Translations under genes and position numbers: made by a program
The notes under the pieces: model-generated
Databases searched by the model: none
Told to the model about the DNA's origin: nothing
What the model saw: only the letters and a program-made list of their open reading frames with translations
Source: a virus
Reading direction: 5' to 3' (one strand)
Length of the DNA stretch: 39,079 nucleotides
IMG/VR virus record: IMGVR_UViG_3300037226_000124
Span: 1 to 39,079 of that record
Shown: piece by piece, positions 2,445 through 29,795 of the stretch
How the letters are laid out: each line of letters begins with the position of its first letter
How positions within the stretch are numbered: the stretch's first letter is position 1

Positions 2445-2726
2445 TTACCTGCCCTTCGTTCCCGGCAAGTTGCCAAGCCTGCCAGCGTCGGATTTGGACA
2501 GTTCCCGCGTCCGCGTGGCGCAACCGGCCGCCTCGCACTTCGGGCAGATCCATCCCCAGGCACGCGTAAAGGCCCAGCCATGACGCTTCAATGCCCGTGC
2601 CGCCTGTTTCTTGGTTCCGGCCATTCCCGCCACGCCACTGGAGATGCCGTTGATGGTGTGGCGCGTACACATCCCGCACCGCACGCTGAAGTTCGGAATC
2701 AGCGTCCCCCTGTCGGGCGCGCTCAT
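2445..2726 (-). CDS. Small zinc-finger-like protein
   Basis: This 93-aa basic protein has two Cys pairs, CGMC near residue 17 and CPKC near residue 61, plus a later Cys. The spacing fits a single structural zinc site. The segment between them (TKKQAARALKRHGW, then W) is a helical stretch common in short phage zinc-ribbon proteins. No enzymatic motif is seen. The ATG overlaps the stop of the upstream three-wHTH gene (ATGA), which fixes the start and indicates coupling. A nucleic-acid-binding role is an inference. Confidence 0.65.
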   Translation of the reverse strand: MSAPDRGTLIPNFSVRCGMCTRHTINGISSGVAGMAGTKKQAARALKRHGWAFTRAWGWICPKCEAAGCATRTRELSKSDAGRLGNLPGTKGR

Positions 2727-3412
2727 TTCGCCACCATCGACGATTCTGCCAGCACTGACAGGTTGTCAAGATCGCGTCTAGCCACTTTTATCGCGCGGTC
2801 CCGGACCGCCGGCAACTTCCCGTCGGCGATCAAACGCCTCAGGAAGGCCAGAGACAAGCCTGTGTAGTCGCTGGCCTGCCTAAGGTCGAGGTATAAAGCC
2901 AGAGGCTCTGGCCGCGCCTCGCCGAGTCTGTTTTCGACGGCTGCGGCAATTCGGTCAAGAACCATGGAGAGAGCGTCCGCGGATGTCGGAATTGGCAGGG
3001 GAGATAGCGCCGCGCTTTGCGCCGGCATGACGTGCGCCCGTGGCGCGGCCAATCTCTCCACATCGTCAGGATTGAACACGGGTTCAGGCTTCATGCCGGT
3101 GCGCGACCGTTCGCGCCGCTCCGGGCCTTCGCCAGCATCGCAACGTCGGTCCAGCGTGCGTTCGCTGATTCCCAGGCTGCGCGCCGCATCCGGTTTGGTG
3201 ATCCACCCTGAAAGATCGAGCGCAATCGGAGACAGGCGCAATACGTCTTCTGGATTGAAGACAGGCTCGGGCTTCAGGCCGGGCCGTGGTCGCTCACGGC
3301 GCTCGGGTCCAAGGTTGCCACCGTCGATGGTGCGCCGGTCCAGCGTGCGTTCGCTGATCCCCAGGCGCGCGGCGGCGTCGGGTTTGGTGAGCCAGGTGGA
3401 AAGATCGGTCAT
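2723..3412 (-). CDS. Protein with three wHTH/excisionase-like domains
   Basis: This 229-aa protein has two near-identical modules: WLTKPDAAARLGISERTLDRR at residues ~6-26, and the WITKPDAARSLG version at ~71-91. A third, diverged module follows at ~172-217 (DLRQASDYTGLSLAFLRRLI, then LPAVRD). Each resembles the MerR/excisionase winged HTH (helix-turn-helix plus wing). The first two copies come with matching linkers (RRERPRPGLKPEPVFNPEDV against RRERSRTGMKPEPVFNPDDV), so about 190 bp was duplicated in tandem. It could be an excisionase or a repressor of the integrase region, though the integrase lies over 20 kb away. A GAAGGAG ribosome site precedes the ATG. Confidence 0.75.
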   Translation of the reverse strand: MTDLSTWLTKPDAAARLGISERTLDRRTIDGGNLGPERRERPRPGLKPEPVFNPEDVLRLSPIALDLSGWITKPDAARSLGISERTLDRRCDAGEGPERRERSRTGMKPEPVFNPDDVERLAAPRAHVMPAQSAALSPLPIPTSADALSMVLDRIAAAVENRLGEARPEPLALYLDLRQASDYTGLSLAFLRRLIADGKLPAVRDRAIKVARRDLDNLSVLAESSMVAK

Positions 3413-7934: not shown

Positions 7935-8370
7935 GGATCGTCTCCCTCAGAAATGGCCGTAAGTTGTCTTTTCGAGTGCAACGTGTTTCCCGGTGGTGAA
8001 GCTTATCGAAATTCAGGTGACACCAGCAGCAGAGCATTCGGAGGTTGTCATCGGCCCCGTTTTCGGGGTCATGATCGAGGTGCGCCATCGTGAGCACCAC
8101 CGTGATGTACCGGGTCCTGTCCGGGATCGGGATCGAGCGAAACTCCTTACCCGATTCGTCGCGCCACGGGCTCCCTGTGTCGCGCCAGAACATGTAAGGA
8201 TGCTGGTTGCCTGGGCCGAATACCAGCATCCCCGAAGTGGTCTCTACTCGTTGGCCGTTCGGCTTGCCGCACTGCTCACAGCACCCCTTCGCGCGCTTCA
8301 TGATGCGGGCGCGCGTGGCCTCGTACTCTTTGCCGCGGTAAAAATGGCGGAGTTCAGCGCGGATGGGCAT
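7924..8370 (-). CDS. HNH endonuclease-like protein, copy 2
   Basis: This 148-aa protein has CEQCG near residue 31, then TMAHLDHDPENGADDNLRML, then CCWCHLNFDKLHH. This is the classic layout of phage HNH proteins: zinc Cys pair, His-Asp-His core, Asn, second Cys pair. The tail HHRETRCTRKDNLRPFL nearly matches that of the adjacent HNH gene. The ATG overlaps the previous stop (TGATG). It is probably a DNA nuclease or a DNA-binding protein derived from one; the metal-binding residues look intact. Confidence 0.78.
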   Translation of the reverse strand: MPIRAELRHFYRGKEYEATRARIMKRAKGCCEQCGKPNGQRVETTSGMLVFGPGNQHPYMFWRDTGSPWRDESGKEFRSIPIPDRTRYITVVLTMAHLDHDPENGADDNLRMLCCWCHLNFDKLHHRETRCTRKDNLRPFLRETIHAG

Positions 8371-10567: not shown

Positions 10568-10769
10568 GTGCGATGTTCGATACGGCAACCGGCTGCTGCC
10601 GCTCTTCACGCCTAATGGAAGGCGTCACTAGGATGCGAAACCCACAGGAAGGGCAGGCCACGCTGACAAGCGGCCCGTTCTTTTCGTGGCTGCGGATCGC
10701 CAGCACTTTTGTGTGGCAGGCGTTGCAGTCCCACTGGTAGGTGGACTCGTAGAGGGTTGGATCGGGCAT
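10560..10769 (-). CDS. Small zinc-ribbon protein (69 aa)
   Basis: Two Cys pairs, CNAC near residue 15 and CPSC near residue 39, lie on either side of a short strand-rich loop. FRILVTPS follows. This is a clear rubredoxin-like zinc ribbon. It is the second gene of the operon, immediately after the large 575-aa gene and coupled to it by TGATG. It may act as a DNA- or RNA-polymerase-binding factor (inference only). Confidence 0.65.
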   Translation of the reverse strand: MPDPTLYESTYQWDCNACHTKVLAIRSHEKNGPLVSVACPSCGFRILVTPSIRREERQQPVAVSNIAHA

Positions 10770-12496
10770 CAGGCCACCGCCGTTTTCAGATTAAGAGTGC
10801 GTCTTGCCCAATCGCGGTCCTGGTCGTCATATTCGGCGTTTCCATGCCGGTCCCTGGCGTCTGGGGGCGTCGCGAGTATCTCCGTGGCGCGCGCCACTTC
10901 GCGTTCGCGGTCCTTTCGTTCTTCCGCATGCTCGAGTTCCAATCTGTCAAGCAGCGACGGCCACGCGTCCACAAAGCCTGCAACGTGCATTTCCAGAACG
11001 CCCGGGCCTTTGATTCGCGGCATGGCTTTCTTTAGGTCGGCAAGGAATGCCGCGCGTGCCCATGCGTGGTCTGGCAGCGAGTCGATGACCATGCGGACCT
11101 TGGACGGGGCAGGATGCGGCCGACCGGCATCGACAAACGCGGCAATCAACGCGTGCTTAAATTCGGCGTCGGGCATTCTTTCTGGTTCGTCTCCCGCGAG
11201 GAATGGGCCGCCGGCAGCAGCGGCGTTTTCGCCGTGCGCGGCCGTCTTCGAACTTCGCGGCTGACTGACCAGCTCGGCAACCGGAATCGCTACCGGGGGA
11301 TCGGGATACTTCGCGGGCGGGGCGGATCGGCTGGCCCGGTCGCGTTCCGGGGGAAGGATAGTGCCAGCTTGCCGCCCCTCTGTCGTGGGGGATTTGGATT
11401 CGGCGGCTCTAGCGGCAGAGGCGTGGGGTTTGTCGGGCCCTTGATGCGGCACGCTCTGGCCGTCGGGATTTAGAACCGCCGAAACTTGTGGGGGCGCCGG
11501 CTCCGGCAACTTCCCATCTTTTTTGTAGGTCTCCAAAATAGGTAGCAGGACCCCTTTCAGGTCCTCCTGACGCTGGTGAACGATCTGTCGCGCGTTGACG
11601 ACAGAAACTTCAGCGTTGACCAGGGTGTCGATCCGTTGAACTATGGCTGGAAATTTGGATAGGATTTCGGCAAGACATGGGTCGTTCACGCCTTGGGCCT
11701 GCATGAAGTGAAACACGCGTTGTGCTGCCATCGTCAATTCGGCCGAGGTTTCTTTCGCGCTCTTGGATAGAGTGAGATCCTCGGCGCTGTGGCGCATGAG
11801 TGCGGCTACGGTGGCTGGGCGAGGATGGACGTGGCAATAAAGGAAGGATTTCCCGGCAAGCCGTTTGCGCTCAGTCTTGGATAGTTCGTGAATTGGAGTT
11901 ATGTACTTCTGGTCGTAAGCTTCCTGGAAAGACAAACCCTCGGAAATCTGCACCCATTCCTCTTCTCCGTCCTTTGTTCGCTTCTCAAATAATCCGCAGA
12001 GGCGACTTAAATCGGCCCAGCCAAGCTTTCGAGTGGCTTCGTCGCGCGCCAGAAACTTCCTGATTGTCACGCTGGTGAAAACGCCGTCTTCGCGCTCGAC
12101 GCTCTCGATGACGCGCCGAATATGCTTCGGTTGGATGCGCCGTTTCTTGCGCTCCTCGGCGCTAAGCTCCTTGCCGCTTCGACGGAACTCGACGATATCC
12201 GCGTCGAGCAACTTGGCGCTGATGGCCGAAGGGGTGAGCGGCACGAACTTAGGCCCATCGCCCTTTCGTCCTGGGACCTGCATGATGCAGAATTCGCCGC
12301 CTCCGCCGGGGTAGCCTATCGCATGTTGCTGGGCGAGCACGATAATGCGGACGCGCCAATCCATGCCCGGCCGCAGGAACACGCCGAGCCCGTGCTTCGT
12401 GGCATATTGCCATTCGGAGGCCGTCACGCCGTACTTGCGAAGGTATGGCGGCACGTATCCGCCGTCTGGCGATTTTGGCCCCTTTTTCGTAATCAT
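10769..12496 (-). CDS. Large early protein of unknown function (575 aa), operon head
   Basis: This is the first and largest gene of the leftward early operon, with a GGAGG site 5 bp before the ATG. Residues ~1-215 are ordered. They include TASEWQYATKHGLGVFLRPG, LTPSAISAKLLDADIVEF and TSVTIRKFLARDEATRKLGW, which look like winged-helix DNA-binding units. Residues ~240-330 are a long helical segment. Residues ~330-450 are Pro/Ala/Ser-rich linker. The last ~120 residues are a helical domain that ends in the YDDQDRDWARRTLN motif shared with a small gene downstream. Position, size and domain style suggest a replication initiator or early regulator, but no diagnostic motif (Walker, HUH, primase) is visible. 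Confidence 0.6.
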   Translation of the reverse strand: MITKKGPKSPDGGYVPPYLRKYGVTASEWQYATKHGLGVFLRPGMDWRVRIIVLAQQHAIGYPGGGGEFCIMQVPGRKGDGPKFVPLTPSAISAKLLDADIVEFRRSGKELSAEERKKRRIQPKHIRRVIESVEREDGVFTSVTIRKFLARDEATRKLGWADLSRLCGLFEKRTKDGEEEWVQISEGLSFQEAYDQKYITPIHELSKTERKRLAGKSFLYCHVHPRPATVAALMRHSAEDLTLSKSAKETSAELTMAAQRVFHFMQAQGVNDPCLAEILSKFPAIVQRIDTLVNAEVSVVNARQIVHQRQEDLKGVLLPILETYKKDGKLPEPAPPQVSAVLNPDGQSVPHQGPDKPHASAARAAESKSPTTEGRQAGTILPPERDRASRSAPPAKYPDPPVAIPVAELVSQPRSSKTAAHGENAAAAGGPFLAGDEPERMPDAEFKHALIAAFVDAGRPHPAPSKVRMVIDSLPDHAWARAAFLADLKKAMPRIKGPGVLEMHVAGFVDAWPSLLDRLELEHAEERKDREREVARATEILATPPDARDRHGNAEYDDQDRDWARRTLNLKTAVA

Positions 12497-13423: not shown

Positions 13424-13735
13424 GGGAGCCCCTTTCCAGCCGCGCGGGCCAATGAAAATAGGGTGAATAGGTTTGCGTTGAGGTGGGATTTACGGCAGAA
13501 TGGAACTGGCCGTCGCCTCTTCCCGACGCGTTGACTTGTTGCTGCTCCGGTCCGCCAAGATGGAAGCAGTGATGAGAAGCAAAGGGAGGGGGTCGCCCGC
13601 GGCCCGCCTGGTAACGAATATTATGGCGGCGAGGGGAAACCCGAGTTGACATAATATTCGCAATCCGAACCCCGAAAACTGAGCACTCGCCCGACGCGTG
13701 GACGTGTGTGTTATCGGAAGCGGATTGCGAGTTTC
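13424..13735. other. 312-bp gap without a supportable gene
   Basis: No ORF with coding character is seen on either strand; the leftward frame across it is low-complexity and ends in 12 residues out of frame with the neighbouring gene. The gap carries one strong dyad (next entry). It is probably regulatory or the remnant of a lost gene. Confidence 0.5.
13615..13660. promoter_or_regulatory. Perfect 11-bp inverted repeat, candidate operator
   Basis: CGAATATTATG at 13615-13625 and its exact reverse complement CATAATATTCG at 13650-13660 are separated by 24 bp of GC-rich sequence. The A+T-rich arms stand out from their surroundings. The spacing (35 bp centre to centre) would put two half-sites about three helical turns apart, as in looping or paired-dimer operators. 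Confidence 0.5.
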
Positions 13736-13957
13736 TCAACTGGCCTTCTCCTGGATCGCGGATTGCGCAGCCTTGACCGCCTCCGCGATTTTAGCGCGGT
13801 GCCGATCCCAGCGGACTTTGATCGCCTTCTTAGCAATTACCTGCCGTTGTTCGAAAGTCGTTTTTTTCATCCGCGCTTTCGAGGCGAAACGGCCGAGCAC
13901 GGACATCGCCTCTTCGAGGGTGATTCTGTGTTTTTTGGGTTTGCGTGGCGTTGCCAT
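13736..13957 (-). CDS. Small basic protein (73 aa), possible DNA-binding regulator
   Basis: This Lys/Arg-rich protein begins MATPRKPKKHRITLEEAMSV. FEQRQVIAKKAIKVRWDRHR then follows, a motif of the S.EQR..IA.KA...RW type seen in many short bacterial and phage proteins of unknown function. It is all helical and carries no cysteine. The gene starts a few bases downstream of a likely promoter with a dyad over the start codon. Next comes the triple operator, so the protein is a candidate switch regulator by position only; no classical HTH is evident. Confidence 0.6.
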   Translation of the reverse strand: MATPRKPKKHRITLEEAMSVLGRFASKARMKKTTFEQRQVIAKKAIKVRWDRHRAKIAEAVKAAQSAIQEKAS

Positions 13958-13976
13958 GTGTTATGATTTCTAACAC
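13958..13976. promoter_or_regulatory. Dyad overlapping -10 and start of the 13957 gene
   Basis: GTGTTA and TAACAC arms (6 bp, perfect) flank a 7-bp spacer and abut the start codon. A repressor here would cover the -10 element and the transcript start. Confidence 0.4.
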
Positions 13977-13995
13977 AATACCGACCGGCTGTAAA
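13967..13995 (-). promoter_or_regulatory. Candidate promoter for the 13957 gene
   Basis: On the minus strand TTTACA (13995-13990) is followed after exactly 17 bp by TAGAAA (13972-13967). Transcription would begin about 3 nt before the ATG at 13957, so the message would be leaderless or nearly so. No ribosome site lies before the ATG, which fits. Confidence 0.4.
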
Positions 13996-14007: not shown

Positions 14008-14076
14008 TGTTCTCATCCAGTGAGAACATAATGTACTCCCACACTGAGAACACCATGTTCTCACCCAATGAGAAGC
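14008..14076. promoter_or_regulatory. Three tandem 21-bp operator-like sites at 24-bp spacing
   Basis: Site 1 (14008-14028) is a perfect dyad, TGTTCTCA-N5-TGAGAACA. Site 2 (14032-14052) has one degenerate arm, TGTACTCC-N5-TGAGAACA. Site 3 (14056-14076) has TGTTCTCA-N5-TGAGAAGC. Their centres are exactly 24 bp apart, so three dimers would bind side by side on nearly the same helix face. This is the layout of lambdoid OR1-OR3 switches. A CATAAT hexamer between sites 1 and 2 may be a rightward -10. Confidence 0.75.
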
Positions 14077-14302
14077 GTTGAAATGCTTTCTGAAACTGGG
14101 GGGGGAAACGCCCTCCGGCGCTTCGCTCCGTGGGGCAGATTCATTGGCTCATCGTCGTCGTCGTCTCTTCAGAGAGCACTTACTTTCGACCAAGGGAGCG
14201 CGCCATTCCAACAGGGACGATGACGACGAAGAAACCAAGGTACGGAGTACGTACCAAGCACCAGAGAGGTGAACCCAATTCCCTCCTGAGATCACCATAC
14301 AT

Positions 14303-14839
14303 GTGACCCCCTTCCCCCGAAACACCATCCGTCTGCCCAACACAAGCCCTCAGAACCGACGCTCGTTCACCCACGTCCGAATCCTCACCCAGGTCTCCGC
14401 GGACGCCTGGAGCGCCGCAGGCTTCGAAGGCGCCCTATACCAGCCAGGCGGCAGAATCGCCGCTGAGGTCCTGGGACTGAACCCCATCGCCTTGGAATAC
14501 GCCGGGCCGCAGGGCACCTACAAACAGCGGAGGGAACGGGAGGGGCTGTGGATCTTGTGGCGTTACGACTGGGAAGCCCACAACTGGCGGGAGATTGTAC
14601 GGGCCGTCTCGAGAGATTGGCACTGGGCGCTGGTGCTGAGAGAGCCGGCGATCCGCGCGCTGCGGCCGTTGACGGTGGAAACGCCGGGCGTCGACGCGGC
14701 CGCGCGGGGCAGGGAAGTCGCCGACGAGCTACTGGTGAGGATCGATGCCGCCCTGTCGCCGGAACTGCCGGCGGTGCGCCGGGCAGTCATGTGCGCGGTG
14801 TACGATTCGATGGCTGGGCGGCTGGCGGCGGCGGCGTAG
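14303..14839 (+). CDS. Hypothetical protein (178 aa)
   Basis: The frame opens at a GTG (14303); the true start may lie further in, since the first ~20 residues are low-complexity. The body contains VSADAWSAAGFEGALYQPGG, LWILWRYDWEAHNWREIVRA and DWHWALVLREPAIRALRP. This is a Trp-rich, compact alpha/beta sequence that I cannot place in a family. The C-terminal ~50 residues are helical and Ala-rich. It lies downstream of the triple operator and may be a product of the rightward promoter there. Confidence 0.55.
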   Translation: MTPFPRNTIRLPNTSPQNRRSFTHVRILTQVSADAWSAAGFEGALYQPGGRIAAEVLGLNPIALEYAGPQGTYKQRREREGLWILWRYDWEAHNWREIVRAVSRDWHWALVLREPAIRALRPLTVETPGVDAAARGREVADELLVRIDAALSPELPAVRRAVMCAVYDSMAGRLAAAA

Positions 14840-20529: not shown

Positions 20530-20805
20530 TCAGCTCGCCGTTTCGAACGGCAGCACCAGCGCCGATGGAACCGCAAGGCCGCGAACGCACTCGGGATGAG
20601 ACACGATGAAAACCACTAGCTGCGTCTTGTTCAAACCGAGCTTAGATTTCATCCGGTCAATGTGCCGCTTGACAGTGTGCCCGGAGATGTCTAACATGTC
20701 TCCGATGGTCTTATTCGTGAAACCGCGAACCAGCAGCGGCCCGACGTCGCACTCTCGCGGGGAAAGCTGTATCAGCGGACCATGCACGCTCTCAATCGCC
20801 CTCAT
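20530..20805 (-). CDS. Stand-alone LuxR/GerE-type HTH regulator (91 aa)
   Basis: Residues ~12-70 (LSPRECDVGPLLVRGFTNKT, then IGDMLDISGHTVKRHIDRMK then KLGLNKT) match the LuxR C-terminal four-helix DNA-binding domain: L(S/T)PRE at the start, NK.I...L.IS..TVK.H in the recognition region. There is no receiver or autoinducer domain, so activity depends on expression or a partner. The ATG follows AGGTAGGT. It lies between the 20384 operon and the Gam gene and is a prime candidate for controlling one or both. A pair of AGTCCCCTAA repeats just upstream could be its own site. Confidence 0.8.
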   Translation of the reverse strand: MRAIESVHGPLIQLSPRECDVGPLLVRGFTNKTIGDMLDISGHTVKRHIDRMKSKLGLNKTQLVVFIVSHPECVRGLAVPSALVLPFETAS

Positions 20806-20882: not shown

Positions 20883-20941
20883 TTTAGACCTCTATCTATT
20901 CCCGCCCATTGAGAGCAGGCTGAAGGTGGAAGTAACAACCA

Positions 20942-25484: not shown

Positions 25485-25512
25485 GGTTGTGCCTTTAGGT
25501 GAAGACACAACC
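25485..25512. promoter_or_regulatory. Inverted repeat upstream of the integrase
   Basis: GGTTGTG (25485-25491) and CACAACC (25506-25512) are exact complements with a 14-bp spacer. They would form a hairpin in the integrase leader if the start is ATG 25526; the alternative GTG (25499) lies inside it. It may modulate integrase translation. Confidence 0.4.
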
Positions 25513-25525
25513 CTGGAAACAGACC

Positions 25526-26197
25526 ATGGGAACACTCAATCTAAACGGGTTATCCGAACATCAAAAGACGGTCCTGGCGGGCTTGCTCTCGCAACTGGAC
25601 GGGGCAACCACCCCGGCGGCTCCCGTCCAAGCCCGGAAAAAGGCCCGCAAGCCCGAGACGGTGAAGTACTGGACCGAGGAGGAATGGGAGCGGTTTCTGA
25701 AGCCGATCACCAATCCGATGCACCGGGCCGCCTTCATCGTGGCGTATCATCGCGGCCTGCGCGCCTCGGAAACCCGGAACCTGATGCTCTCGGACCTGCG
25801 GCTGAAAGACGACCGAATCCAGATCAGCCGGCTGAAAGGTTCGGTGTCCGGCGAGTACCATCTGGGATCGGCTGAAAGCCGCGCGCTCAAGATCTGGCTC
25901 AAAGTTCGCGGCACGGAACCCGGCCCGCTCTTCCGAACTCGGACGGGGACGGGAATCAGCCAGCAGATGCAGGACCGGCTGGTGAAGAAATTCGGCAAGC
26001 TCGCCGGCATCGCGCCGGAGAAGTGCCATGTGCATTGCCTGAAGCACAACTGTGCCACCCACCTGCTGGCGCGCGGGGAATCGCTGGAAGATGTCCAGGA
26101 CCATCTCGGCCACCGCAGCATCAAATCAACCGAAATCTACGCCAAATTCACCACGCCTCGCCGGCAAGCGCGCGACAAGCGGCTGAGGGACTGGTAA
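25526..26197 (+). CDS. int: Tyrosine recombinase (phage integrase)
   Basis: This 223-aa protein, short for the family, has an N-terminal SAM-like segment (TVKYWTEEEWERFLKPI) and catalytic residues Arg79 (GLRASETRN), Lys104 (RLKGS), His170 in HCLKHNCATHLL, His196 (GHRS) and Tyr205 (STEIYAKF). The second active-site arginine is replaced by Lys173. Such Lys variants occur in a subset of short integrases, but they are uncommon. The length leaves out most of the usual arm-binding and core-binding domains. ATG 25526 is chosen over GTG 25499, which has no ribosome site. Its place in mid-window, away from both ends, fits an attP on a circular phage. Confidence 0.85.
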   Translation: MGTLNLNGLSEHQKTVLAGLLSQLDGATTPAAPVQARKKARKPETVKYWTEEEWERFLKPITNPMHRAAFIVAYHRGLRASETRNLMLSDLRLKDDRIQISRLKGSVSGEYHLGSAESRALKIWLKVRGTEPGPLFRTRTGTGISQQMQDRLVKKFGKLAGIAPEKCHVHCLKHNCATHLLARGESLEDVQDHLGHRSIKSTEIYAKFTTPRRQARDKRLRDW

Positions 26198-27151: not shown

Positions 27152-27322
27152 CTATACAGGCCCGTCACGAATATAGGCTAACCACCGTGGTTTGTCAAAG
27201 GTGGAATTGCTGCGCGCGCAGAAATTAGCCAAATGCTCTATTTGCTCTGGTGAAAATGGGTGTCCGGCACGAGCGGCATACCGGATGCAATCGGCCAGAG
27301 CCAGGATGTATTTCAGTTTCAT
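27152..27322 (-). CDS. Small hypothetical protein (56 aa)
   Basis: The ATG at 27322 overlaps the clamp gene stop (ATGA), which argues strongly for a real gene. The product (MKLKYILALADCIRYAARAG, then HPFSPEQIEHLANFCARSN) is helical with two Cys and ends shortly after FDKPRWLAYI. It has no recognised domain. As the terminal gene of the DUF932/clamp operon it may act with the clamp (inference). A GGGCCTG/CAGGCCC hairpin (27145-27163) straddles its stop codon. Confidence 0.7.
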   Translation of the reverse strand: MKLKYILALADCIRYAARAGHPFSPEQIEHLANFCARSNSTFDKPRWLAYIRDGPV

Positions 27323-28653
27323 GCGACGTACCTAGTCCATGCCATGACCCTATCCTCAACCGTGGGCGGCATCCTGGCAATCCGCTCATCGGCATCCTTT
27401 GCCCATTGCAGTTTTTCGTGCTCTCCAGTTGCACAGGGATCGGAGCCACCGTCCATCCTCATCGGCATGAGCACATAGCGCCATCCTGGCGCCGTCCATT
27501 CCGCAGCGTGGGCGCATTTGTTGAAGTGGAATCGGACGTCTGGAACGTCCGCCGATTTTAGGAATTCCGCGACATATTCGGCATTGAAGCCGGCGCCATA
27601 CGGGTAAGCCAGGCCCGATGTCAGAACGTCGTATCCATTTTCCGAATCAAGGCGCCGGATGCAATCGATGGGCACCTTACCGGATGCGGCGCCGCGGCCG
27701 CAGGAATCCGCCGATACAGCCATGGACCCATTGACGCTGAATAGCACGGCGTGCGAACGCTCATCGGCGAATAGCGCCACGCGATCGAGTACTTTCCGCA
27801 AGGGCGCCACTGAAACATCGGTGGCGTATGCCAGGTCCTTCGGCATGACGCGTTCATAATCCGGAAAGTTTCCCGTGAGCTTTCGAGAAACGATTGTACG
27901 GGCGCCCACTGCGAAAAACGCGTGCTTGTCATCCTGGGAGAAAAATGCGCCATCAGACAGGCGAACCAGCTCGGTTAACGCCTTGCGGGGGATCAGGGCT
28001 TTCACGTCCGCCGAATCGTAAGCTATCAGTTCCACCATTGATAGACGGTGGCCGTCCGTAGCGATCAAATGCGCCTGGTTTCCCTGCACTCTAAGCAAGG
28101 CGCCGTTCAAAGTAAATCTTGACACTTCATCCGAAATGGCAATCACGGCGCGAGGTATGGCTGTTTTCAAGCCGCCCAGTTGAAGCAATGTGGGCGGAGT
28201 ACTCGGCAACGTTGGATATTGGAATGCTTCCATGCCAGGTACATTCATGGCGCCATCGGCGCCGTGTTCCAGGCGCAGCGTCACGCTGAGGGTTTGGGGT
28301 TTGAGATTGCAATCGCAGGTTTCCCCGCAGGTTTCAGGATGCGGACCGTAAAACGGCGCCGTCATGATGATTTCGGGGACAAGAAACACCGTGCTTTCAT
28401 CTACTTTTTTCAGATACTTGATTAGCAGGCCCGCCGGCGCCGCTATTTCGAAATCGGGTCCGGCGCCGATTTCCAGACTGGTAACCCCGCCGATTTCCAG
28501 GTCTGTAGCCGTGATATTCAGAAAATCACCACGTTTCTGAAAGAGCACATTTGAAAGCACGGGAATCGTGCTCTTTTTTTCGATAAATCGCGCGCACCAT
28601 TCCAGCTCGGAAAGAAACGCTTTAGTTGGGATTTCGTAACGGTGTTGTTCCAC
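27319..28653 (-). CDS. dnaN: DnaN-like DNA polymerase III sliding clamp
   Basis: This 444-aa protein matches beta clamps: FLSELEWCARFIEKKSTIPV then LSNVLF (domain I entry), ITATDLEIGG, IPRKALTELVRL, NFPDYERVMPKD (domain II/III), and WRYVLMPMRM near the end. The bacterial clamp is ~366-370 aa. Here there are two extras: an insertion with C109, C113 and C115 (TCGETCDC) in domain I, and a ~45-residue C-terminal extension past MPMRM. The clamp tethers polymerase to DNA, and a phage copy would serve phage replication. A GTG at 28653 behind CAGGAG gives the start; the open frame reaches 28791 and would overlap the DUF932 gene. Confidence 0.88.
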   Translation of the reverse strand: MEQHRYEIPTKAFLSELEWCARFIEKKSTIPVLSNVLFQKRGDFLNITATDLEIGGVTSLEIGAGPDFEIAAPAGLLIKYLKKVDESTVFLVPEIIMTAPFYGPHPETCGETCDCNLKPQTLSVTLRLEHGADGAMNVPGMEAFQYPTLPSTPPTLLQLGGLKTAIPRAVIAISDEVSRFTLNGALLRVQGNQAHLIATDGHRLSMVELIAYDSADVKALIPRKALTELVRLSDGAFFSQDDKHAFFAVGARTIVSRKLTGNFPDYERVMPKDLAYATDVSVAPLRKVLDRVALFADERSHAVLFSVNGSMAVSADSCGRGAASGKVPIDCIRRLDSENGYDVLTSGLAYPYGAGFNAEYVAEFLKSADVPDVRFHFNKCAHAAEWTAPGWRYVLMPMRMDGGSDPCATGEHEKLQWAKDADERIARMPPTVEDRVMAWTRYVA

Positions 28654-28748
28654 GTTTTTGTATCTCCTGTTTTTTCGGGGAATTGGTTTCCTCGGACCCA
28701 TCAGGGTTTCGGGCCGGTAACCAGCCGGCCCGTCGTCAGCGAGGGTAA

Positions 28749-29795
28749 TCAGTTCGCGTTTACGATTTGATCGAGGAGAGAAACGCCACATGCTATGGGC
28801 GCCCGCACGTCGGAATAGATCGGCCGCGATGTAGTGACCGTCTGGAGTCCGGCGGCGGTTTCCATCAGAACTTCCATGGCCGTGGTTTTCAGACGGTCAC
28901 CAGACCCAAACATGGCCGATTCTCCCTTGTCATCCTTGCGCGTGCTGCGCACGTGGTCAGTGTATTCGGTTACGGCATTGAGAAGGTTGTACGCCGTTCC
29001 GCGTTGATCGGGGAACGCGTTCGAATCGTTGGATTCGTAGCACCTGAGAACGTCACTCAGGATGTTGTTTCGGCGTGTCGAATCCTGAGGTTTTCCGGCC
29101 GCATCCTTGGATTGCGGAAAGAGCCGATCCAACACGGACACCGTGGTCTCGCGCGTCATTTTCCGGGTTGCCAGCATGTTCAGTTTTTGCTCAATCGTGC
29201 GTACCTCGGCGCCAACAGTGGCAAGCGCGTCATGGGCCTGATTGAGACGCGTTTGGGCGTTCGCGGTATGGCGGACCTTGAACAGACTGGTGGCCTTACT
29301 CGACATCGCAGCATTCAACGTGTTTTGGCATACCACGCGCGTACCCGTGGTTCGGTAGAGATGGGAAAACGTCCCATTGTGCGCGGTGGCGAACAACAGA
29401 TACATGTTCCATTTGTCATCGGCGCCGACGTTGACCGAAAGAGCCAGGTTCGCCAGTCCCCAAACCACTTCGCCTCTCCCCAAAGCACCGGCGGTTTCGT
29501 AATGCGCGCCATTCTGCGAGCCAATCAGGGAATCGATCATACGGAACCCTTGAGCGTGATCGATCACCGTATAGGACTCGCCCACAGCTCCGAGGAAGTC
29601 GCCAGTATCGGGGCGAAACACGCCCCACGCGTCTACCAGTTTTCCCGCTTGGGAGAAGAGCTGTTCTTTGAACGGGACGTAATCGAGTCCGCCATGCGCC
29701 TGGATATCTTCCCAGGTCATGTACTGGCCAGTGACCGTACCTAGTTTGTGCCAGGCGGCTTGACGTCCGATGTAGGAATTGATGTTGTGTGCCAT
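28749..29795 (-). CDS. DUF932 phage/plasmid-type protein (348 aa)
   Basis: MAHNINSYIGRQAAWHKLGT, TWEDIQAHGGLDY, VFRPDTGDFLGAVGESYTVI then DHAQGFRMID, and later RVVCQNTLNAAM and VRHTANAQTRLNQAHDAL are the typical blocks of the DUF932/TIGR03299 family. This family is found on many phages and plasmids, where its function is unknown. The length is near the family norm (~320-350). The ATG has AAAAGGAAC upstream. It precedes the clamp gene by 95 bp and is probably in the same operon, a link that may point to a replication or repair role. Confidence 0.85.
   Translation of the reverse strand: MAHNINSYIGRQAAWHKLGTVTGQYMTWEDIQAHGGLDYVPFKEQLFSQAGKLVDAWGVFRPDTGDFLGAVGESYTVIDHAQGFRMIDSLIGSQNGAHYETAGALGRGEVVWGLANLALSVNVGADDKWNMYLLFATAHNGTFSHLYRTTGTRVVCQNTLNAAMSSKATSLFKVRHTANAQTRLNQAHDALATVGAEVRTIEQKLNMLATRKMTRETTVSVLDRLFPQSKDAAGKPQDSTRRNNILSDVLRCYESNDSNAFPDQRGTAYNLLNAVTEYTDHVRSTRKDDKGESAMFGSGDRLKTTAMEVLMETAAGLQTVTTSRPIYSDVRAPIACGVSLLDQIVNAN

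Follow-up and report, generated by a model that had tools for sequence, protein, structure and literature searches.

A regularly spaced dyad array with type-specific sites, a candidate operator array for the leftward early operon of a temperate siphophage group

A 39-kb temperate siphophage record in IMG/VR (IMGVR_UViG_3300037226_000124), all 39,079 nucleotides of which were analysed here and are referred to as the window, carries three 21-bp dyads between two divergent open reading frames (ORFs), at positions 14008–14076. This dyad array is real and is kept as a layout across related phages. It is best read as an operator array, specific to each phage type, that controls the leftward early operon, a reading to which we assign a probability of roughly 0.55.

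The three dyads of the window are built on the half-site TGTTCTCA and follow one another at start-to-start steps of 24 and 24 bp. Site 1 (TGTTCTCATCCAGTGAGAACA, 14008–14028) is perfect, with 0 mismatches; site 2 (TGTACTCCCACACTGAGAACA, 14032–14052) has two departures, both in its left half, and site 3 (TGTTCTCACCCAATGAGAAGC, 14056–14076) also has two, both at the outer right end (no strand is assigned to any of the three). The earlier note on this DNA had described site 1 as perfect, site 3 as near-perfect and site 2 as weaker; the first part of this grading was correct, but sites 2 and 3 each depart at 2 of 16 positions, and the grading is therefore milder than described. The exact 24-bp spacing of three 21-bp dyads, which the same note had reported, was confirmed far beyond chance, as three matches to the consensus were seen in the window compared to 0.08 expected (≤ 3 mismatches allowed). 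In addition, a motif-blind scan for three regularly spaced dyads (steps of 20–26 bp) ranked the array at 14008 first in the entire window with a score of 60, relative to 40.9 ± 1.5 (maximum 45) in 40 dinucleotide shuffles of the window. No further copies of the consensus were found in the window record, where the nearest was a four-mismatch match at 20897.

The record contains integrase, terminase, portal, protease and capsid genes, and its tyrosine integrase (25499–26197, + strand) points to a temperate lifestyle. To the left of the array lies a 73-aa basic ORF (13736–13957, − strand; 20 K+R and 6 D+E), and to the right the first rightward gene, which encodes a 178-aa protein (14303–14839, + strand); neither protein had a family match above the curated cut-off. 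No match to PF01381 (HTH_3) was obtained anywhere in the window record, which bears out the claim that no CI/Cro-type helix-turn-helix (HTH) gene sits beside the array. Across the five records, PF01381 was absent from G000, G002, G003 and G004, a result that very diverged HTH domains could escape, and the sole match above cut-off in G001 sits far from the array. Other HTH-type proteins of the window are a 91-aa LuxR/GerE-type protein (20530–20805, − strand) and a 229-aa protein with HTH_17 and other HTH-type matches (2723–3412, − strand); the latter had no match in G001 (the record of phage L020), and no relative was matched to it in the comparison of window ORFs. The phage also encodes a DNA polymerase III sliding clamp (490 aa) beside a DUF932 protein (27319–29795, − strand). 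Among sequenced phages there was no match to the array region or its two flanking proteins, and no relative of the 178-aa protein was detectable in the bacterial genome collection.

Relatives were gathered through homologues of the 178-aa protein, which yielded six further contigs representing four distinct phages, L020, L021, L022 and L023 (L019 was identical to L020, and L024 to L023, over their overlaps). Their homologues of the 178-aa protein are 56–68% identical; in L020 (7959–8478) the frame shifts near 8320 and the C-terminal part continues in another frame, so that this gene may be broken or misread. All four relatives share the same layout, consisting of a small basic leftward ORF (57–65 aa, in the same place, with the array to its right), a near-leaderless sigma70-like promoter, a regular dyad array, an inverted repeat and the homologue of the 178-aa protein. 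The half-sites differ from phage to phage (TGTTCTCA, TGTTCC, TGTAGTG, TCGCGCAA and ACTTCGTAC), and the spacing is 24 bp in three records, 23/22 bp in one and 21/22 bp in one. L021 has the sites TGTTCCTTTGCCAGCAGAACA, TGTTCCCCGCCACTAGGAACA and TGTTCCCCCGCCAGAGGAAGC at steps of 24 and 24 bp, its perfect site being the middle one, unlike that of the window, while in L022 two half-conserved copies come after TGTAGTGCGTCAAGCACTACG, again at steps of 24 and 24 bp. L023 carries four sites around TCGCGCAA-N6-TTGCGCGA (steps of 23, 23 and 22 bp), and L020 three GTAC-centred sites (steps of 21 and 22 bp), of which the middle one is ACTTCGTACGAAGT.

In the motif-blind scan, the best array of each relative's intergenic region was the one in the homologous position. 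The scores of the L021, L022 and L023 arrays were reached by 0 of 300 shuffles, each at the best of four window widths, and that of the L020 array by 0 of 300 shuffles at the 14-bp width only; these counts are uncorrected for the choice among four widths. The window, L021 and L022 could be aligned without gaps through three sites at 24 bp (TGTTCTCA, TGTTCC and TGTAGTG, respectively), and the sequences thus indicate that frame and spacing are kept among these three phages and the recognition letters are not. In each record the motifs were confined to the array region, except for one perfect copy in L022, which lies ~150 bp further on within the loop of the inverted repeat. An exact-motif scan of IMG/VR returned 15 stretches with single sites only, mostly inside coding frames, which argues that the site sequence itself is not conserved; a search for two sites at 24 bp recovered only L021 and L066, the latter match falling within a coding frame. 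Conservation in related phages, as raised by the earlier note, therefore applied to the layout (four of four relatives) but not to the site sequence, which was different in each.

The inverted repeat of the window (TCGTCGTCGTC...GACGATGACGACGA, with TCGTCGTC...GACGACGA; 14149–14232, + strand) lies between the array and the rightward gene. Its arms are kept in L021 and L022 and are similar in L020, and the loops differ; the copy in the L022 loop is a fourth perfect operator-like site in that phage. The dyads of the array itself could also be stem-loops in a transcript rather than protein sites on DNA. Perfect dyads can fold into hairpins, but the 24-bp phasing and the common frame with different sequences in relatives fit DNA sites better, and we regard RNA hairpins as very unlikely.

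The best sigma70-like site of its strand in the region is a predicted leftward promoter with −35 TTTACA (13990–13995, − strand) and, after a spacer of 17, −10 TAGAAA (13967–13972, − strand), the latter 9 nt ahead of the ATG at which the small ORF starts, so that the promoter is near-leaderless. A leftward sigma70-like site is present in all five records (window TTTACA-17-TAGAAA, L020 TTGACG-18-TACTAT, L021 TTGCAA-18-TAGTCT, L022 TTGCGC-17-TAGAAT and L023 TTGACT-17-TAATCT), its −10 ending 4–9 nt ahead of the small-ORF ATG, and it ranks best on its strand in four of them and third in L021. The centre of site 1 lies 61, 61.5, 61, 59 and 69.5 nt from the ATG across the five records; the distance from array to promoter is thus nearly fixed in four of five, whereas that from the array end to the rightward gene varies from ~230 to 350 nt. 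This steady distance amid diverged sequence ties the array to the leftward promoter. If transcription begins at the ATG or close to it, site 1 in the window would fall near −58 to −61, on the upstream side of the −35, where activators typically bind. Leaderless transcripts are known for the repressor and cro of PY54 (PMC4488713).

A further 21-bp dyad, TGTGTTA-N7-TAACACA (13957–13977, no strand), lies over the −10; it is unlike the array in sequence and is a possible repressor site. Arms of at least 7 over a random AT-rich hexamer had P = 0.011 in the window, where the dyad was noticed after the fact, and a counterpart with 7-bp arms was present in L020 (P ~0.01, also post hoc) and weak or absent in L021, L022 and L023. 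To the left of the promoter, a segment at 13465–13610 (+ strand) is kept in L020 and L022, with 85% mean column identity over 13508–13610. A promoter-like TTGCGT-17-CAGAAT, which has counterparts in L020, L021 and L022, precedes the segment. Its middle part can pair and shows at least one compensatory change (GCTGC/GCAGT to GCCGC/GCGGT), and it had no Rfam match; possibly it is a small RNA gene facing the 73-aa ORF.

Overall, the kept layout, the adjoining promoter-like site and the presence of an integrase or resolvase in all five records (the window and its four relatives) make the fragment look like a control region, as judged from sequence. Three related dyads between divergent temperate-phage genes are also found in lambda OR (OR1–OR3), N15/phiKO2 and phi11, and the window array shares with lambda-type switches an operator spacing of ~23–24 bp (24 and 23 bp in lambda OR), type-specific sequence and a temperate phage with an integrase. 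Lambda-type switches, however, are flanked by CI/Cro HTH genes and their operators overlap divergent promoters, whereas the window array is without such flanking genes and its sites lie beside the predicted leftward promoter, upstream of it. No convincing rightward promoter, as a lambda-like switch would need for its right half, was found in the region, and none overlapping the sites; a second operator cluster equivalent to OL was also not found in the window, which may be a fragment. The earlier note had proposed a lambda-like genetic switch. The control-region part of this proposal agrees with the layout in four relatives and the promoter-like site, but 'lambda-like' is not supported as worded, given an array upstream of the −35 of the only convincing promoter, no rightward promoter found over the sites and no second operator cluster. 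Triple-operator control regions with type-specific sites are an already known kind; unusual here are that a CI/Cro-type gene is missing and that the sites precede the promoter. Phi11 illustrates that a set of three operators can be read in a way other than that of lambda (PMC3991615).

Under the operator reading, the three sites would bind a dimeric, phage-encoded, sequence-specific regulator, perhaps cooperatively, with neighbouring dimers separated by about two and a quarter turns of the helix. The near-leaderless leftward promoter, from which the operon of the 73-aa protein would be read, lies downstream of the array, and the bound regulator, with site 1 centred ~58 bp before the expected start, would control this promoter. 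Upstream activation would be the simplest mode of control, and repression could act through the other dyad, that over the −10. The site sequence is particular to each phage type within a common frame, as expected for immunity-type specificity. The regulator may be the 73-aa protein (our first choice), or else the LuxR-type HTH protein or another protein.

Dyad arrays are also found in phage origins, and lambda O binds iterons of 19 bp that are imperfect inverted repeats and adjoin an AT-rich region (PMC7466680). Thus, the dyads could instead be iterons for a phage initiator, with the adjacent low-GC stretch as unwinding element. The putative initiator would be a 575-aa leftward protein (10769–12496, − strand), a possible replication protein; since lambda-type origins are arrays of 19-bp inverted repeats, binding by this protein would make the array an origin. 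The window array resembles the lambda ori iterons (PMC7466680) in that its sites are dyads of ~19–21 bp, with a replication-type operon and a low-GC stretch close by. Homologues of the 575-aa protein occur only in L021 and L022, which share the 24-bp spacing, and L020 and L023 have unrelated proteins in its place and unrelated arrays. No other iteron-like array was found inside the leftward genes searched (the 575-aa gene and its counterparts), and the lowest-GC 40 bp near the array is within about the lowest 1% of each record. However, that stretch is just 60–67% AT and lies over the promoter in three of five records, and the 575-aa protein has no Pfam or PHROG match. Furthermore, the spacing of array and promoter is kept in four of five records, and lambda-type iterons lie inside the initiator gene, whereas the window array is intergenic, flanked by divergent genes at a fixed promoter distance and ~1.5 kb away from the gene of the candidate initiator. 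We consider a replication origin the main rival reading, possible at odds well short of even.

Returning to the operator reading, the 73-aa protein is our first-choice regulator of the array, tentatively so, as the overall odds are somewhat against it. A strongly basic small ORF adjoins the array in all five records. The small ORFs of the window and L023 share a core that is 41% identical along half of their length (E = 7e-5), that of L022 has a similar GGR...ARW pattern by eye, and those of L020 and L021 are weakly similar. The 73-aa ORF had no match to a known DNA-binding family or fold, and its predicted structure (three helices, mean pLDDT 70) gave no useful PDB match. Similarity between small ORFs did not track similarity between arrays (rho −0.12; 10 non-independent pairs). 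The highest coefficient was that of the 178-aa protein (0.65, nominal P = 0.04; ten non-independent pairs), which probably reflects general relatedness; the predicted structure of this protein had a pLDDT of 54. The rank test of pairwise similarities, on ten non-independent pairs, separated none of the small ORF, the GerE-type protein and the 575-aa protein.

Within the operator reading, the LuxR/GerE-type protein could bind the array instead of the 73-aa protein. Proteins of this type commonly bind dyads of about 20 bp. A GerE-type domain was found above cut-off in all five records, and its gene directly follows the homologue of the 178-aa gene in L023 and lies near it in L021 and L022; in the window, however, it is 6 kb from the array. 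Moreover, the proteins of the window and L023 share 58% identity and have near-identical recognition helices (GHTVKRH and IHAVKKH), but their arrays are wholly different, and an unrelated phage (record G005, described below) has an array and no GerE domain. The rank correlation between GerE-protein and array similarity was 0.43 (P = 0.22; ten non-independent pairs), and we consider this protein an unlikely binder.

A partition site (centromere) of a phage that persists as a plasmid, bound by a ParG/omega-like protein, would likewise pair a repeat array with a small basic protein whose promoter lies downstream of the repeats. A partition site is disfavoured because a ParA-type ATPase (PF13614) is missing in all five records, which instead have integrase or resolvase genes, and we regard it as extremely unlikely.

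The L023 small ORF had no match among the phages and plasmids compared. Another search with this ORF led to an unrelated phage, L047 (record G005), in which a small ORF with the same GGKARA core lies behind three TACGTGC dyads. These dyads (2875–2957) are at steps of 26 and 41 bp, directly upstream of the small ORF and between divergent ORFs, and their score was reached by 0 of 40 shuffles; G005 had no detectable homologue of the 178-aa protein. Among six further GGKARA-type ORFs, one had a convincing upstream array and the other five had none. Small basic ORFs of the GGKARA...ARW type may conceivably encode switch proteins of a new, non-HTH family in phages, each recognising a dyad array of its own type, a proposal we consider doubtful; if true, a whole group of temperate phages would switch without CI/Cro-type repressors.

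If the array is an origin, the five records would offer several diverged iteron arrays together with a candidate initiator that matches them. If the sites are operators, the records would offer five natural types of site that share a frame and adjoin a single small candidate regulator, and thus a compact test bed for the divergence of phage immunity specificity, in an uncultured phage group otherwise without a recognisable CI-type repressor.
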